Below are positions 28,553 to 38,540 of a DNA stretch of 43,546 bases, piece by piece. Each line of letters begins with the position of its first letter. Position 1 is the stretch's first letter. Below the pieces are notes generated by a model, which was given only the letters and a program-made list of their open reading frames with translations, made no database searches and had not been told where the DNA came from. The DNA is from Acidobacteriota bacterium (GTDB taxonomy: Bacteria; Acidobacteriota; Terriglobia; Terriglobales; Acidobacteriaceae). Where the stretch lies: contig QIAB01000038.1 of the NCBI GenBank assembly GCA_003225455.1, positions 38,201 through 81,746 on the forward strand, given 5' to 3'. The position numbers and the translations under genes are program-made.

Positions 28553-29716
28553 ATGGCCATACCGCTCAGCTACAACATCCGGAACTTGAGATTACGCAAG
28601 GGCCTGACGATCATGACAGCGCTGGGCATCGCGCTCACCGTGACCACCGCGATTTTCATCATGGCCCTGCTTGCTGGCCTGAAGCGTGCGTTTGTCACCA
28701 GTGGCGATTCCCAGAACGTGCTGGTTCTGCGCAAAGGGTCGGAGGCTGAACTCTCGGGTGGTTTTGATGCTGCCAACTTCCCGGTGTTGAAGAATCTGCC
28801 GGGTATTGCTAAGGATAGCCACGGTGAGCCGATGGCTTCAGGCGAATGGGTGGTAGTAATTGTGCTTCCACGCAAGGACGGCACCGGAGAAGTCAACGTC
28901 ACAGTCCGGGGCATGATGCCGGACGGTCTCGAACTGCGCCCCAAAGTAAAGTTGGTCGAGGGCCGCTGGTTCACGCCGGGGCAGCGCGAGGTAGTGGTCA
29001 GTGAATCCATCCACAAACGTTTTTCGAATGCGAATGTAGGAGATACTTTGGCCTTCGGCAAGGGGCCATGGCAAGTCGTAGGGGTCTTCGATGCTGGCGG
29101 TTCCGCTTACGACTCTGAGATCTGGGGCGATGTCAACCAGATGGCGACAGATTTCGACCGCCAGGGTGGCTTCTCCTCAGCGTACCTGCGGGCGGCAGAT
29201 CCGGTTTCCGCGCAATCGTTGAAGAATCGTGTGGGCGATGACCAGCGCTTGAAGCTCGAAGGCATGCTGGAGACGGAATATTACGCGAAGCAAACTTCGT
29301 CGGGCGCGCCGATCAGGATTATCGGTTGGATCGTGGCGGTCATTATGGCCATCGGTTCGAGCTTTGCCGCTATGAATACGATGTACGCCGCGGTCGCGTA
29401 CCGAGGACGCGAAATTGCCACTCTGCGGGTGATCGGATTTTCGAAACCAAGCATCCTGACGTCATTTGTCCTCGAATCGTTGCTGCTGTCGCTGCTGGGC
29501 GCGCTGGTCGGCATCGTATTGATGCTGCCCTTCAATGGCATGACCACCGGGACCTCCAACGCTGTGACGTTCAGCGAAATTGTTTTCAGCCTGCGGATGA
29601 CGATGCCGGTGGTTATTACCGCGGTCGCATTTGCCTTAATTATGGGATTGTTCGGCGGCATAGCGCCCGCGTGGCACGCGGCTCGCCGCGACATTATTGC
29701 GGCATTGCGGGATTAG
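28553..29716 (+). CDS. FtsX/MacB-type ABC transporter permease (third, divergent)
   Basis: A 387-residue permease with the same layout: N-terminal span about 19-41 (TIMTALGIALTVTTAIFIMALLAGL), a large external domain (DGFDAANFPVLKNLPGI-like region to about residue 255), and three C-terminal spans with VAYRGREIATLRVIGFSKPSILTSFVLESLLLSLLGALVG. It is much less similar to the first two permeases than they are to each other. An AAGGGA lies upstream of ATG, 17 bp after the previous stop. A REP hairpin lies immediately after its stop, before the adaptor gene. Confidence 0.88.
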   Translation: MAIPLSYNIRNLRLRKGLTIMTALGIALTVTTAIFIMALLAGLKRAFVTSGDSQNVLVLRKGSEAELSGGFDAANFPVLKNLPGIAKDSHGEPMASGEWVVVIVLPRKDGTGEVNVTVRGMMPDGLELRPKVKLVEGRWFTPGQREVVVSESIHKRFSNANVGDTLAFGKGPWQVVGVFDAGGSAYDSEIWGDVNQMATDFDRQGGFSSAYLRAADPVSAQSLKNRVGDDQRLKLEGMLETEYYAKQTSSGAPIRIIGWIVAVIMAIGSSFAAMNTMYAAVAYRGREIATLRVIGFSKPSILTSFVLESLLLSLLGALVGIVLMLPFNGMTTGTSNAVTFSEIVFSLRMTMPVVITAVAFALIMGLFGGIAPAWHAARRDIIAALRD

Positions 29717-29726
29717 CAAGCTACAC

Positions 29727-29760
29727 GTAGGGGCGGGTGTCCTCACCCGCCCGGCCGAGA
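29727..29760 (+). repeat. REP element: GTAG plus TCCT-loop hairpin inside the ABC operon
   Basis: GTAG (29727-29730), stem GGGCGGGTG, loop TCCT, stem CACCCGCCC (29744-29752): a perfect 9-bp stem, followed by GGCCGAG, a remnant of the second hairpin seen in the 36.44 kb copy. The stem differs from that copy by one compensated base pair (G-C versus A-T). It lies in the 61-bp gap between the third permease and the adaptor. Confidence 0.8.
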
Positions 29761-29777
29761 TTTAACGAACTGAACGT

Positions 29778-31142
29778 ATGCCACTCGATACGAAACATCA
29801 CGATCTGCAAAGCCTGCGCATTGACCGTTCGGCCAAGAGCAGCGAAGGCGAACCGGCGCCCTGGGCCAAGCGCTACATCATCATTGGCATCTCGGTTGTG
29901 GTGCTGTTGAGCATTTCTGCCCTGATGTACCGCCTGTTCGCGTCCGATGCTCCAGAAGTCGAGATCGCTCGCGCCGCCGCCGAGAACAGCGATATTGGCG
30001 GCATCGTTCTTTCGGCTAGCGGCTACGTCGTTGCCCATCACAAGATCAACGTGAACTCCAAGGTGACGGGGCGCGTGAAATGGATAGGCGTAGAAAAAGG
30101 GGACAAAGTTAAAGAAGGCCAGGTCGTGGTCCGCTTGGAAGATGACGAGTTCCGCGCGCAGTACCAGCAGGCACACGGAGCCGCCGAAAATGCGAGGGCG
30201 TATTACCAGGAACTGCTGCACGGCTCGCGTCCAGAAGAGATAGCGCAGGCCGAGCACAATCTGGCCGAAGCCCGCGCCACGGCGGCAAATGACAAAATCA
30301 TTCTGGATCGCACGCGCAATCTGACCAACCAGGGCGTGCTTTCGCAGCAGGCGCTCGACGATGCCACAGCTAGGTTTGAAGCGGACCAGCAGCGGGTGAA
30401 TTCACTCGAAAAAACCTTCCAGCTTTCGAAAATTGGGCCTCGAGCGGAGGAAATCGCCCGCGCCAAGGGCGCAATGATTCAGGCCGAAGGCCAGGAGGCA
30501 TACGCCAAGTCGTTATTGGATGCAACGCTGATCAAAGCGCCGGTGACAGGAACCATCCTTGAGCGCACGGCCGAAAAAGGCGAGTTGGTCACTTCGCAGT
30601 TCGCCAGCCAGGCGGAAGGCGGCCCGCAGGGCGAAGTCGTGGCGTTGGCCGACCTCAGTGACATTCAGGTCGAGCTCGACATCGCGCAAGATGATTTCGC
30701 CAAACTTGGTCCCAAGCAGAAAGGTGTGGTCACGCTTGACGCCTTTCCCGATCGCAAGTACGACGGCGTGATCGCCGAAATTTCGCCGCAGGCTAATCGC
30801 CAAAAGGCGACGGTGCAGGTGAAAGTACAGATTCTGAATCCTGACGAGTACCTGCGCCCAGAGATGAATTCCACGGTCAAGTTTCTGGCCGAAGAGGGAA
30901 AAAAGGGAGGCTCCCAGCCGTCCGGAGTCTTTGTGCCTACCACTGCGGTTCGGGATCATGATGGAAAGAAGATCGTCTTCATCGCATTTAACGGCAAAGC
31001 GCTCAGGCGGGAAGTCCGCGTTATCTCGCAGCGCAGCGGAGGCCTTCTGGTCCAGGGGTTAAACGGCGGCGAGGACGTCATCACCTCCGGCCCGCAAGAT
31101 TTGAAAGATGGAAACAAAATAAAAATTAAGGGACAGTCATGA
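29778..31142 (+). CDS. HlyD/MacA-type periplasmic adaptor (membrane fusion protein)
   Basis: A 454-residue adaptor. One N-terminal span at about 33-53 ([22 protein letters not shown]) leaves most of the chain in the periplasm. A split lipoyl/barrel-sandwich motif starts [44 protein letters not shown] and ends [21 protein letters not shown], with a coiled-coil hairpin between ([30 protein letters not shown]). Beta-barrel and membrane-proximal domains follow ([33 protein letters not shown]). It should link the permeases to an outer-membrane exit. It lies 61 bp after the third permease and overlaps the ATPase gene by 4 nt. Confidence 0.92.
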
Positions 31143-35714: not shown

Positions 35715-36302
35715 TTATCCCCCCTGCTTCAACTCCACAAGCACCTGCCGCGCAATCTCTTTTAACGTCTCGAATACCCCCGCCCCCTGAAAGGCGATAG
35801 CTTCGAGCACCGGCTCATTTTTCCGACGAAGGTCCTGAGAGAGCTTATCAATCGGTAATACATTGGGTAAGTCGCGCTTATTGAGCTGCAGGACATAGGG
35901 AATCTTCTTGAAATCGTAGCCGTGCTCTTTGAGATTGGCCATCAGATTTTCGAGCGCTTCGACGTTGGCGTCCATGCGCTCTTCCTGCGAGTCAGCCACG
36001 AAGACAATGCCATCCACGCCGCGCAAAATCAGTTTGCGGCTGGCGTCATAGAAAACCTGGCCCGGAACCGTGTACAAGTGAATGCGGGTCTTAAAGCCGC
36101 GCACCGAGCCGAGGTCCAGAGGCAGGAAGTCGAAGAACAGGGTACGCTCGGTCTCGGTTGCGAGGGAGATCATCTTGCCCTTCTGCTGCTCGGCAGTTTT
36201 CTGATAGATGTACTGCAGATTCGTGGTCTTGCCGCCCAGCCCGGCGCCATAGTAGACGATCTTGCAATTGATCTCGCGGGCGGCAAAGTTGATAAAGCTC
36301 AA
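35715..36302 (-). CDS. mglA: MglA-type small Ras-like GTPase
   Basis: A 195-residue GTPase. In its relatives it sets cell polarity with MglB and directs gliding or type IV pili. I chose TTG 36302 because it gives [19 protein letters not shown], the canonical N-terminus, with AGGA 5 nt upstream; an in-frame GTG at 36317 is possible. P-loop GAGLGGKT (19-26), then [16 protein letters not shown]3 as [13 protein letters not shown] (an MglA-type TVPG in place of DxxG) and G4 LNKRD. All the expected motifs are present. MglB is not visible nearby, though many acidobacterial MglA copies lack an adjacent MglB. Confidence 0.9.
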
Positions 36303-36440
36303 GACGTTCCTCGACACGCGCGGCCAGCGTTCGGTTGCGAACGCTTCCGCATCAGAATTTTGGCTCGTTGCTGCTGGTTTTATATCACACGGTGCAGCGT
36401 TACCGGCAGGTTACTGTGGTTACTAGAAAGCGGCATTTTC

Positions 36441-36487
36441 GTAGGGGCAGGTGTCCTCACCTGCCCAGCCGAGCGCAGCTCGGCCAC
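36441..36487 (+). repeat. REP element 1: GTAG plus two hairpins at the 3' end of the RAYT gene
   Basis: GTAG (36441-36444), stem GGGCAGGTG, loop TCCT, stem CACCTGCCC (36458-36466), then a second stem GCCGAGC, loop GCA, GCTCGGC (36469-36485). The RAYT stop codon lies inside the first hairpin (36457-36459). The first stem is a compensated variant of the 29.73 kb copy. Confidence 0.85.
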
Positions 36488-36948
36488 ACCGGCGCTACCC
36501 ACAACCAGCAATATTCCTGTGGCGATTGCGCCAGCCCCTTCCTGACAGGATTATCCAGGATATAGGCGATTTTTTCGTCCAGCTTTTCGGATAGTCGCAA
36601 CACGCGATCGAATGATTCTTCTTGCCAGACTCGCCCGACCCTGCCCAGTTTACGGTTTATTAGATGTGCGGAGGTGCCTTTGATTGCCTTTGTGATCTGC
36701 GCAAGTGAGAATACCTCCAATTTTTGCAAGTCGATTTTGGGAACGAAGACCATGTGCACATGATCCGGCATGACTACCAGGGCGTTCAGGTCGATCGTCC
36801 ACTGGTGCGCGCGCATAGCCGTATCCATCACGATAGAACGAGCCCAGTTGGGCAATATCCATCGCTGATGCGTGCAGAAGGTTAAGAAATGCGGCTTGTC
36901 GTCGCGCTGAAGATGAGGCAGATTACGCCGGTAGAAAAATTTTGGCAC
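36457..36948 (-). CDS. REP-associated tyrosine transposase (IS200/Y1-like, RAYT)
   Basis: A 163-residue single-strand DNA transposase-like protein. The HUH motif is MPDHVHMV (His63 and His65), and VWQEESFDRVLR followed by KIAYILDNPVRKGL is the classical RAYT C-terminal block. The catalytic Tyr position is not obvious: the usual GYYD/SYYD site reads ESFD, and Tyr129 in KIAYI is the nearest candidate. RAYTs bind REP hairpins next to GTAG. The GTG start at 36948 abuts the direct repeat at 36949, and the stop lies in REP 1. No terminal inverted repeats of an ordinary IS are present. This is a solitary, apparently full-length gene. Confidence 0.88.
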   Translation of the reverse strand: MPKFFYRRNLPHLQRDDKPHFLTFCTHQRWILPNWARSIVMDTAMRAHQWTIDLNALVVMPDHVHMVFVPKIDLQKLEVFSLAQITKAIKGTSAHLINRKLGRVGRVWQEESFDRVLRLSEKLDEKIAYILDNPVRKGLAQSPQEYCWLWVAPVWPSCARLGR

Positions 36949-37057
36949 CGTATTGAATGAATTCTACCGCCGGGCTTTGCCCGGCCGCCCAGACGAGGAC
37001 GTCTGGGCCTACGTATATTGTGCCGAAATGGGAAAGGCTAGCGTTTCATCTGCTCAG
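36949..37057 (-). repeat. Direct repeat copy A with REP element 2
   Basis: A 109-bp unit almost identical to copy B (37165-37271). On the minus strand it contains GTAG (37012-37009), stem GCCCAGACG, loop TCCT, CGTCTGGGC (37008-36987), then a second stem GCCGGGC, loop AAA, GCCCGGC and GGTAG. It begins exactly at the RAYT start codon and ends with CTGCTCAG, which in copy B is the 3' end of the VWFA gene. Confidence 0.85.
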
Positions 37058-37163
37058 GGGGCTGACCCTCGATAAGAGCGAAGGCGTCGTCGAGGGCCAG
37101 CCGCGCCAGCCGCTGTTGGGGAGAGGCAACAAAGATCAAAACCAAGGCTGGGCCAGCCCCCCA
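37056..37163. repeat. 108-bp inverted-repeat-ended insert between the direct repeats
   Basis: It starts GGGGGCTGACC and ends GGCCAGCCCCC(C), nearly complementary (one mismatch). Inside, CTGACCCTCG pairs with CGAGGGCCAG around a loop of about 20 nt, and GGCTGGGCCAGCC near the end is self-complementary. It resembles a small foldback element of the MITE type. No protein is encoded. Confidence 0.5.
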
Positions 37164-37164
37164 T

Positions 37165-37271
37165 CGTATTGAATGAATTCTACCGCCGGGCTTCCCCGGC
37201 AGCCCAGACGAGGACGTCTGGGCCTACGTACATTGTGCCGAAATGGGAGGGCTAGCGTTTCATCTGCTCAG
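37165..37271 (-). repeat. Direct repeat copy B with REP element 3
   Basis: A 107-bp copy matching copy A with only a few differences and two 1-nt gaps. GTAG (37227-37224), stem GCCCAGACG, loop TCCT, CGTCTGGGC (37223-37202), then a slightly altered second stem. Its last 12 bp are coding: the VWFA stop codon is 37262-37260. Confidence 0.85.
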
Positions 37272-38540
37272 CCCGACCGGATAATAACCTTCCTTGGCAA
37301 CTACGGTCAGATCCGGTCTTGCCACTTTGACTTCGATCTCGCGGTGGGCACTGCTGGGGGTGGCGCGAGTTACGTATCCGAGTGTGTATTGATTGCGCGC
37401 GTCGCCGATCAATTGAGAGTACGTGCTCTCGATCGCCTGGCGCGAGAAGCCGTTGAAGATTTCGCCACCCGTAGCGTTGGCATATTTCGGAAGAATGTCG
37501 CTGTAGCCGAGTTTCGGAAGATGCAGTCTTTGCAGCCGGCCGTAGACGGGCACCGCGGAACCCTCCACCGCCACCCCGTACACCATGATGTTGTAGGAGA
37601 GCAGAACTTTGAGCGTGTCGCCATAGCTGGCGATGCTGCGCGATTCACGGCCGTCGCTGATAATGAAAACGACTTTTCGCCGAGTCCGATCGCGCCTGCT
37701 CAAATCCACCGCTGCTGCCAGAATGGCATCGTTCAGCACATGCGATTCCTTGGGTGGGGTAATGACTCGTGGCGTGCTGGGATCGATGGGAACGTTGTTT
37801 ACCGTAGGTCCTTGTGGCCCCAAAGGGCCGCCCGTCACAGGGGGGCCGTTGTTGCGGCCACTGACCGTCTTCAATTCATTCAAAGTTGCGGTCAGCTGTT
37901 TGCTCGCGGCGGAGAAATCTGACACTTTGGAGACGGCGCTGCTGTAGGTATATATCGAGACCTCATCAAACTGGCTGAACGCTCCTTCCAGCGCAGGAAA
38001 GGTTTGTTTTACCTTTTCCAAAGCGACGTCGGGCAGGCCGGTATCAAAGATGACTGCGGGATCGGTAGTGAAGAAATTGAGCTTTTGCTTTTTCCCGTCT
38101 TCAAAAACGGAAAAATCCCTAGGCAGAAGTCCGTTGACGAGGCGGCCCGAACCGTCCTTCACCATGACCGGGACCAGCACTTGATTGACGTTGGTTACGA
38201 TTTTGTATAGATCGTCGCTAGGCCCGCCCGGTTCCTGGGTTGCTCCGCCTTCAGGAACTGTGGTGATGTTCATCGGAGGACGGGGTGGTGGGGGTGTCTC
38301 AGAAGCGGGAGCTGGGGCATTTTCGGGAGGTGGATTTTCGCTAGGCGGCGCCTGGTTGGGCGGAGCAGGTTTGCTTTCAGGCGCAGCATTGGGGAACGGC
38401 TGAGGGGGATGGACCGCTGAGGGCGCGTCCGGAATCTCTTGTTTCTGCTCAGTTTGCTGCGCCGTTGCCGGAGGAACCAGGGAGAATGCGAGTATTGCCA
38501 GGCAGCCTACCCTCGTTTGCCTGTAGATCACTGGAAACAC
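37260..38540 (-). CDS. VWFA-related domain protein with atypical MIDAS
   Basis: A 426-residue exported protein. MFPVIYRQTRVGCLAILAFSLVPPATAQQ is a signal peptide, followed by a Pro-rich linker of about 80 residues. From VNQVLVPVMVKDGSGRLVNGLLPRDFSVFEDGKKQ onward it has the acidobacterial VWFA layout. The MIDAS strand reads VIFDTGLPDVALEKVKQTF rather than DxSxS, so metal binding is doubtful; the later HVLNDAILAAAVDLSRRD and VVFIISDGRES are conserved. A Pro/Gly/Asn-rich loop (GRNNGPPVTGGPLGPQGPT) interrupts the domain. It lies divergent from the next VWFA gene across 109 bp, and its 3' end is duplicated in repeat copy A. Confidence 0.82.
   Translation of the reverse strand: MFPVIYRQTRVGCLAILAFSLVPPATAQQTEQKQEIPDAPSAVHPPQPFPNAAPESKPAPPNQAPPSENPPPENAPAPASETPPPPRPPMNITTVPEGGATQEPGGPSDDLYKIVTNVNQVLVPVMVKDGSGRLVNGLLPRDFSVFEDGKKQKLNFFTTDPAVIFDTGLPDVALEKVKQTFPALEGAFSQFDEVSIYTYSSAVSKVSDFSAASKQLTATLNELKTVSGRNNGPPVTGGPLGPQGPTVNNVPIDPSTPRVITPPKESHVLNDAILAAAVDLSRRDRTRRKVVFIISDGRESRSIASYGDTLKVLLSYNIMVYGVAVEGSAVPVYGRLQRLHLPKLGYSDILPKYANATGGEIFNGFSRQAIESTYSQLIGDARNQYTLGYVTRATPSSAHREIEVKVARPDLTVVAKEGYYPVGLSR

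Follow-up and report, generated by a model that had tools for sequence, protein, structure and literature searches.

A probable acidobacterial REPtron with two-hairpin REPs and a candidate sequence address

In a 43 546-nt stretch of DNA from an Acidobacteriaceae genome (the whole stretch is called the window here), we found a locus that, judged by its sequence, is very likely a REPtron, namely a domesticated Y1 HUH single-strand nuclease (RAYT) together with its cognate REPs. The REPtron is a known kind of system; new or refined are the two-hairpin form of the REPs, a rule by which part of the first hairpin would serve as a sequence address, and the reading of the cassette as an insertion next to an MglA-like gene. 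Acidobacteria are little described for GTAG REPs in the excerpts of the RAYT literature used in this study, and the papers given below by PMC number are likewise cited from excerpts.

The RAYT gene and its hairpins

The RAYT (TnpAREP) gene occupies positions 36457-36948 on the minus strand and encodes 163 aa, with a GTG start and a TGA stop. A Y1-type transposase had been proposed here by the first-pass annotation, and both the open reading frame and the family were confirmed: the protein passed the NCBIfam equivalog NF047646 (REP_Tyr_transpos) narrowly, by 1.6 bits (81.6 bits against a cut-off of 80), and the Pfam model Y1_Tnp with 28.9 against 23, while a Pfam scan of the 163 residues gave no other family at E ≤ 1. 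The HUH motif is D62-H-V-H65, followed by W108-Q109 and the catalytic Y129 in YILDNP. In a 42-row alignment, H63, H65 and P134 were invariant and Y129 and N133 were conserved in at least 90% of the rows; the latter two were invariant in a 10-row alignment. The closest solved structure by sequence profile was 4er8, E. coli TnpAREP bound to REP (E 1.5e-7), which was also the best Foldseek match (E 2.2e-8, TMq 0.68) of the AlphaFold model of the RAYT (pLDDT 82.4, pTM 0.77). W108, Q109, D114, R115 and R118 align with the W, Q, E, H and R of 4er8 that contact GTAG in E. coli TnpAREP (PMC6006769), so that the contact set reads W-Q-x4-[DE]-[HR]-x2-R.

Three REPs surround the gene. REP1 (type a, 36441-36484, plus strand) consists of GTAG at 36441-36444, a perfect 9-bp stem with a TCCT loop at 36445-36466, GGGCAGGTG(TCCT)CACCTGCCC, and a second stem of 7 bp with a GCA loop at 36468-36484, GCCGAGC(GCA)GCTCGGC; the last codons of the RAYT gene lie within it together with the TGA stop, whose overlap had been noted at first pass. 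REP2 (type b, 36969-37012, minus strand) has GTAG at 37012-37009, a first stem of 9 bp, GCCCAGACG(TCCT)CGTCTGGGC, and a second of 7 bp with an AAA loop, GCCGGGC(AAA)GCCCGGC. REP3 (type b, 37185-37227, minus strand) has GTAG at 37227-37224, the same first hairpin as REP2 and a second hairpin, GCCGGGGAAGCCCGGC, with a stem of 6-7 bp and a 4-nt loop. GTAG, the perfect 9-bp stem and the TCCT loop were thus found in all three REPs as annotated, whereas the 3-nt loop ascribed to a second stem of 6-7 bp holds for REP1 and REP2 and not for REP3. As single-stranded DNA, each of the three folds into two hairpins, with z-scores of -6.3, -6.9 and -6.6 for REP1, REP2 and REP3, respectively (200 shuffles each). 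The other-sequence copy GGGCGGGTG/CACCCGCCC is also real, but it lies outside the interval in which it had been reported: REP4 (29727-29752, plus strand) carries GTAG and GGGCGGGTG(TCCT)CACCCGCCC without a second hairpin. In gene context, which was taken for the window copies only, REP4 sits between the open reading frames 28553-29716 and 29778-31142, and REP1 overlaps the RAYT end.

REP2 and REP3 belong to a direct duplication of 36946-37057 and 37162-37271, with 105 identities, 5 mismatches and 2 gap positions over a unit of about 110 bp. The locus therefore holds two REP kinds rather than three; all three reported REPs are present, but REP2 and REP3 stem from one duplication and are not independent. 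Since the unit with REP3 also holds the last codons of the neighboring VWFA-type gene and the unit with REP2 has the RAYT start codon at its edge, we infer that REP2's unit is probably the derived copy. What abuts the start codon is this unit and not, as had been described, REP2 itself, which ends 20 nt away. Types a and b are in opposite orientation, with b upstream and a downstream of the RAYT gene, and they differ at basal and apical pairs. The 104-bp spacer between the units (37058-37161) contains a long imperfect palindrome (RNA fold z-score of -1.9) and holds the only terminator-like site of the scanned region.

REPs beside other RAYTs and across genomes

We then screened the best 80 of 216 RAYT relatives, whose record titles name Acidobacteria, Planctomycetota, Deltaproteobacteria, Chloroflexi, WOR-3 and others. 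A GTRG tag followed by a perfect stem of at least 8 bp occurred within 500 bp of the RAYT gene in 71 of them, and the density of GTRG hairpins was 5.61 per kb within 150 bp of the gene against 0.17 per kb beyond 500 bp and 0.166 per kb beyond 1 kb, the latter about a 34-fold step. GTRG gave 194 near matches, compared with 1-33 for ten other tags, three of which were degenerate like GTRG. Together with the equivalog pass, these hairpins uphold the acidobacterial REP/RAYT system that had been proposed. An alignment of 25 REPs showed 59 both-side changes with 99.1% of the cells paired; because these REPs had been chosen for pairing, we used instead a pairing test in which GTRG and five apical pairs were required and the base was left unselected, where the basal four pairs were formed in 41 of 47 cases, and for the basal three the count was 123 of 132. 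A search of Rfam gave no match at the gathering cut-offs. At two planctomycete loci (L113 and L123), the perfect REPs near the RAYT were all CCCAGCCG on the plus strand and all CACCCCCG on the minus strand, in unlike-ended arrays of 3 + 3 and 5 + 6 around one RAYT.

A covariance model of 26 nt matched at least 111 sites in the genome that holds the window at E ≤ 0.01, and relaxing the threshold to E ≤ 1 raised the number to 138. Both figures come from 150 scored candidates out of 4691, so the first is a lower bound. The REPs are thus present in high copy number. Most of those in the stretches analyzed belong to other subfamilies than the window's, some of them beside other RAYTs. In about 288 kb of this genome, mostly chosen around model matches, there were 149 REP-like hairpins of several subfamilies, which remained from 167 after those lacking a pyrimidine-rich loop or a GC-rich stem had been removed. 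The TCCT-loop subfamily is small, with 3, 2 and 2 exact copies among the kinds listed, two of these copies being one duplication. Neighboring REPs within 200 bp in the 288 kb were head-to-head in 20 cases, tail-to-tail in 2 and tandem in 22; in five of the head-to-head cases one partner is of the GGGCGGGTG type and the other of the GCCCGGACG type, and no head-to-head pair consists of two GGGCGGGTG-type or two GCCCGGACG-type REPs. When GTAG-N6-10-GTCCTC was simply counted over the genome, there was no excess (58 sites against 77 for a reversed-pattern control), which makes counts that ignore pairing uninformative. A stem with at most one mismatch was present in 19 of 30 sites fetched from the 58. 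With a tighter pattern, 4 sites were found and none with its own control.

Three further features of this genome were observed. In the 10 nt upstream of GTRG, a purine stood at -2 in 142 and a pyrimidine at -1 in 141 of the 149 hairpins, with G at -6 in 75, so the REP element seems to start upstream of GTRG, perhaps where cleavage takes place. At L232 (G000:C79:51700-52072), three model matches of equal score, 174 bp apart, form a tandem array that carries GTGG GGGCGGACG(TCT) REPs. At L189 (G000:C193:5602-6060), a fragment of a RAYT with 64% identity to that of the window lies at a contig end, next to a head-to-head pair of GGACAGCCG REPs; this is probably another REPtron, truncated where the assembly breaks off.

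The presence of any RAYT was discarded as a predictor of REPs. The curated RAYT model matched 100 of 120 relatives, 77 of them over the cut-off, and we therefore scored presence on a closer RAYT, defined by E ≤ 1e-15, a threshold set after seeing the list, with the split made from the listed rows and unlisted genomes counted as zero. REP matches per genome were taken from at most 64 scored candidates with stricter filters, and G056, with a 37-aa RAYT fragment and 23 matches, was placed among the genomes without a close RAYT. Among 72 genomes of the same family, the model matched 20 of 21 with a close RAYT (median 21) and 19 of 51 without (median 0), with p 3.8e-6 by Fisher's test and 4e-7 by a rank test; at a threshold of 10 matches the counts were 13 of 21 and 13 of 51 (p 0.006), all of these p values ignoring kinship. 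In the suggested comparison of copies per genome, REP matches are thus commoner with a close RAYT; 19 genomes without one still match. Marked exceptions were G011 (48 matches) and G048 (46): the window's RAYT found nothing in G011 at E ≤ 1e-10 and only a weak match in G048 (6.8e-11), and the one readable RAYT-like gene in the fetched stretches of each was not flanked by the model's REPs. Hairpins as frequent in genomes lacking any RAYT had been named at first pass as grounds for rejecting the system; orphan REP populations exist, but populations of this kind are less common in genomes without a close RAYT than in genomes with one, and the orphans likely reflect persistence after enzyme loss. 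In G011 (L245-L251) and G048 (L253-L257) the REPs number in the dozens, and visual inspection showed a second hairpin in some of them.

Persisting orphans would also fit the reading that the hairpins are mainly RNA elements or terminators on which the RAYT, a companion for historical reasons, has ceased to act, as would the overlap of REP1 with the RAYT end in a same-strand gene row. We regard this as improbable, given that the only terminator-like match of a simple scan is no REP, with shuffles also giving one, and that a terminator would require neither the scarcity of tail-to-tail pairs nor the GTRG tag outside the stem nor apex sequences linked to the RAYT.

Fixed and variable letters of the first hairpin

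To locate the constrained letters, REPs were compared within and between loci at 57 loci that carry them on both strands, with equal weight per locus. The sets for this comparison and for the tree traits were limited to stems of 8 or 9 bp with loop and GC filters, which kept 210 of 231 REPs and 72 of 76 loci. Differences within versus between loci were 0.00 versus 0.18, 0.01 versus 0.34, 0.07 versus 0.18 and 0.36 versus 0.46 for loop bases 1 to 4, respectively. For the stem, counted from the apex, they were 0.01 versus 0.24 at the closing pair, 0.04 versus 0.13 at the second and 0.15 versus 0.65 at the third; 0.11 versus 0.09, 0.07 versus 0.55 and 0.01 versus 0.01 at the fourth to sixth; and 0.32 versus 0.65, 0.33 versus 0.55 and 0.28 versus 0.32 at the seventh to ninth. 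The third letter of GTRG gave 0.16 versus 0.50. The ratios of within to between were accordingly 0.00, 0.03 and 0.06 for loop bases 1 and 2 and the closing pair, compared with 0.49-0.88 for the basal pairs. The sixth pair from the apex, which is the fourth from the base in 9-bp stems, was C-G in 153 of 154 distinct REPs, and in the own genome the fourth pair of 9-bp REPs had C in 109 of 110. When three-pair ends were compared, 18 loci differed at basal but not apical pairs and 2 showed the reverse (p 0.0004), with differences at both ends in 9 and at neither in 28. The window is among the eleven loci with differing apical pairs: its own two REP types depart from the general pattern at the second and third of these.

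From these patterns, pairing alone seems to be enough only for the basal stem, while a sequence address seems to reside in the apex and loop. The first-pass annotation had suggested a recognition rule of structure rather than sequence, which is supported for the basal stem and not for loop bases 1 and 2 and the closing pair. Shared letters may come from copying, so the address is a prediction of recognition and not proof of it; the likeness of REPs at one locus may reflect copying rather than recognition. The pattern agrees with the assays of PMC8266576, in which loop bases were critical in two group 3 REPtrons, some basal pairs were tolerant and a mismatch was damaging, and in which the fourth stem position mattered in Marinomonas while the second and third did not.

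Should the RAYT instead recognize GTAG and any well-paired 9-bp hairpin, the both-side changes of the 25 REPs selected for pairing, the variation of basal pairs within a locus and the basal and apical differences between the window's two types would all be expected. A rule of pure structure is nevertheless quite unlikely, since loop bases 1 and 2 and the closing pair hardly vary at any one RAYT but change from one RAYT to another, and the near-invariant sixth pair, the 18 loci against 2 and the critical loop bases of group 3 all count against it.

Several REP traits also followed the RAYT tree, which was built by a quick method from 75 rows with REPs (14 of 81 inner branches were starred in an 84-row version). 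The apical five bases required 23 changes against a shuffled mean of 42.0 (minimum 37), stem length 10 against 21.6 (minimum 15), the second hairpin 9 against 16.3 (minimum 12) and the closing base 10 against 15.3 (minimum 11). GTAG versus GTGG, a weak trait, was not distinct from the shuffles, with 20 changes against 23.9 (minimum 18), and among the results listed no association of RAYT residues with stem length, closing base or second hairpin survived independent pairs. One locus with three stops in its RAYT gene (L132) was left out of the tree-label tests and kept in the address and second-hairpin counts.

The second mini-hairpin and a probably inserted cassette

With sets read from the RAYT tree and only the loop filter applied, a second perfect stem of at least 6 bp directly behind the first was present in 14 of 14 REPs of the window and its four neighboring tree rows L076, L077, L078 and L132, or 11 of 11 without the 3 REPs of L132, a broken gene of unsure tree place. 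It was found in 18 of 27 REPs of the 11-row GGACAGCCG clade, with 0 of 5 at L079 and L085, in 7 of 29 of a 13-row neighbor clade and in 5 of 150 elsewhere, while control offsets gave about 2%. GNA triloops occur in 25 of the 32 second hairpins of the first two sets (8 of 14 and 17 of 18), and within the window REP1 alone has one. GNA loops closed by G-C pairs make extraordinarily stable DNA mini-hairpins, GCGAAGC melting at 78 C (PMC4686876). A two-hairpin REP is not described in the excerpts of PMC3733652, PMC6006769, PMC8266576, PMC2817692 and PMC3686654, where the closest parallel is the Pseudomonas repeat of PMC3733652 that links a degenerate GTAG unit to a further stem-loop, and the REPs of the window's nearest RAYTs, with their added mini-hairpin, appear to be a new REP variant.

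A mechanism can be proposed in which an exposed REP strand, e.g. on the lagging strand, would fold into GTRG and a hairpin, and the enzyme would hold GTRG as a guide. The apical pairs and loop would be read as the address and the basal pairs would need pairing only, and a predicted cut near the conserved YRY just 5' of GTRG would lead to REPs being copied or moved. The second hairpin, probably very stable, would keep the strand folded or give the enzyme or a second monomer extra hold.

The cassette itself, a probable insertion at approximately 36426-37272 (∼840 bp), is flanked by two minus-strand genes, at 35715-36317 and 37260-38540, whose sequences suggest an MglA-like small GTPase and a VWFA-type secreted protein, respectively. 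Of 61 genomes searched at E ≤ 1e-60, 37 carry the MglA-type gene. The loci of 29 relatives were retrieved; 22 of them have the VWFA-type gene at the same locus, and none (0/29, E ≤ 1e-3) has a RAYT. The VWFA-MglA gap is ∼943 bp in the window; in the 18 relatives where it was measured it is 84-318 bp in 17 and 909 bp in one, and none of these 18 gaps contains a GTRG hairpin of the kind tested. Homology upstream of the MglA-type gene resumes at 36423-36425 in six relatives, 15-17 nt from the CTAC of REP1, and in a seventh the alignment reaches 9 nt from it. Conversely, no MglA-type or VWFA-type gene was found within flanks of up to 3 kb of the 80 RAYT loci. As the relatives' loci lack a RAYT and the RAYT loci lack both genes, the cassette is most likely an insertion that arrived in the window's lineage. 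Within the GGACAGCCG clade, several RAYTs have flanking genes in common from one genome to another (among the 30 pairs listed out of 46) and thus look vertically inherited. The stretch 36258-36425 upstream of the MglA-type gene resembles a regulated promoter; it is conserved in L265, L267, L268, L270, L271 and L272 and contains AGTAAC repeats ahead of a GTGATATAAAACCAGCAG-like box.

The cassette may have moved as a unit, as this lineage-specific insertion suggests, or may have been built up stepwise; according to PMC6006769, REPtrons do not appear to move as units. We put forward, as a tentative and rather doubtful extension of the REPtron reading, that in the window and its nearest relatives the sequence-addressed hairpin and the mini-hairpin, often with a GNA triloop, would form one recognized and mobilized single-strand unit, a new two-hairpin REP with unlike ends a and b, and that the cassette would still be movable as a whole. 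A transposon of the IS200/IS605 type whose left and right ends were the REPs would likewise be bounded by hairpins, have two differing ends and share the fold class. However, the other RAYT matches in the own genome are at most 64% identical, so that there is no second near-identical copy; the IS200/IS605 model NF033573 scored 25 bits against a cut-off of 55; the end hairpins are inverted and not on one strand; and the shared flanking genes of the GGACAGCCG clade point to vertical inheritance. We consider such a transposon very unlikely and rejected membership in this family. That GC-rich hairpins lie beside a transposase gene merely by chance, for which the unpaired pattern count without excess could be cited, is already refuted by the hairpin density around the RAYT relatives (71 of 80 loci and a 34-fold step) and sits badly with fold z-scores of about -6.5, leaving this reading a negligible probability.

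How a RAYT chooses its own REPs among several families has been tested in few laboratory systems, as far as the consulted RAYT literature describes, and one genome here holds several RAYTs beside different REPs. The roughly 80 related loci amount to a natural selection experiment. It predicts that loop and apex carry the address while the base needs only to be paired, and that one clade has an additional mini-hairpin; both predictions are testable with short oligonucleotides and one protein.

Among known systems, RAYT homologs had early on been found in gammaproteobacteria only (PMC2817692), a statement superseded by PMC6006769. In the latter, the nearest entry of the motif table is RAYT subclass 2.7, which shares DHVH, WQ, YIL.NP and GTRG REPs; of its strict motifs [ND]HVH, WQ and YI[LR][NQ]NP, the window's RAYT fits the first two and falls outside the third with YILDNP, and the excerpts mention no second hairpin for it. 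The double inverted repeats of P. putida and P. fluorescens TIRtrons (PMC3733652) similarly combine a GTAG unit with a further stem-loop in hundreds of copies, but by the repeat descriptions there the GTAG unit is degenerate, whereas here it is intact. The TIRYTs of Acidobacteria described in the same paper are Y1 transposases of the same phylum with long terminal inverted repeats in place of GTAG REPs; TIRYT (subclass 2.1) was rejected for the window's RAYT, which has 163 aa with Y1_Tnp only, GTAG REPs at its flanks and no C-terminal HTH or DnaA-like domain. The E. coli REPtron (group 2, subclass 2.2) has in common the Y1 HUH nuclease, the GTAG contacts, the 4er8 fold, inverted REP pairs and REP heterodimers, Y/Z in E. 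coli and a/b here; it differs in the bulged stem and in a loop without a base-specific role (PMC8266576), whereas the REPs here have mostly perfect stems and a constrained loop and those of the window's nearest RAYTs a second hairpin. The group 3 REPtrons of Stenotrophomonas (TnpASm) and Marinomonas (TnpAMb) in PMC8266576 belong to another phylum, have other loop letters and are described in the excerpts with no mention of a second hairpin. They share with the present system perfect stems, critical loop bases, tolerant basal pairs and the requirement for pairing, and the role of the fourth position in Marinomonas has a likely counterpart in the fourth pair of the present 9-bp REPs, which is nearly invariant.
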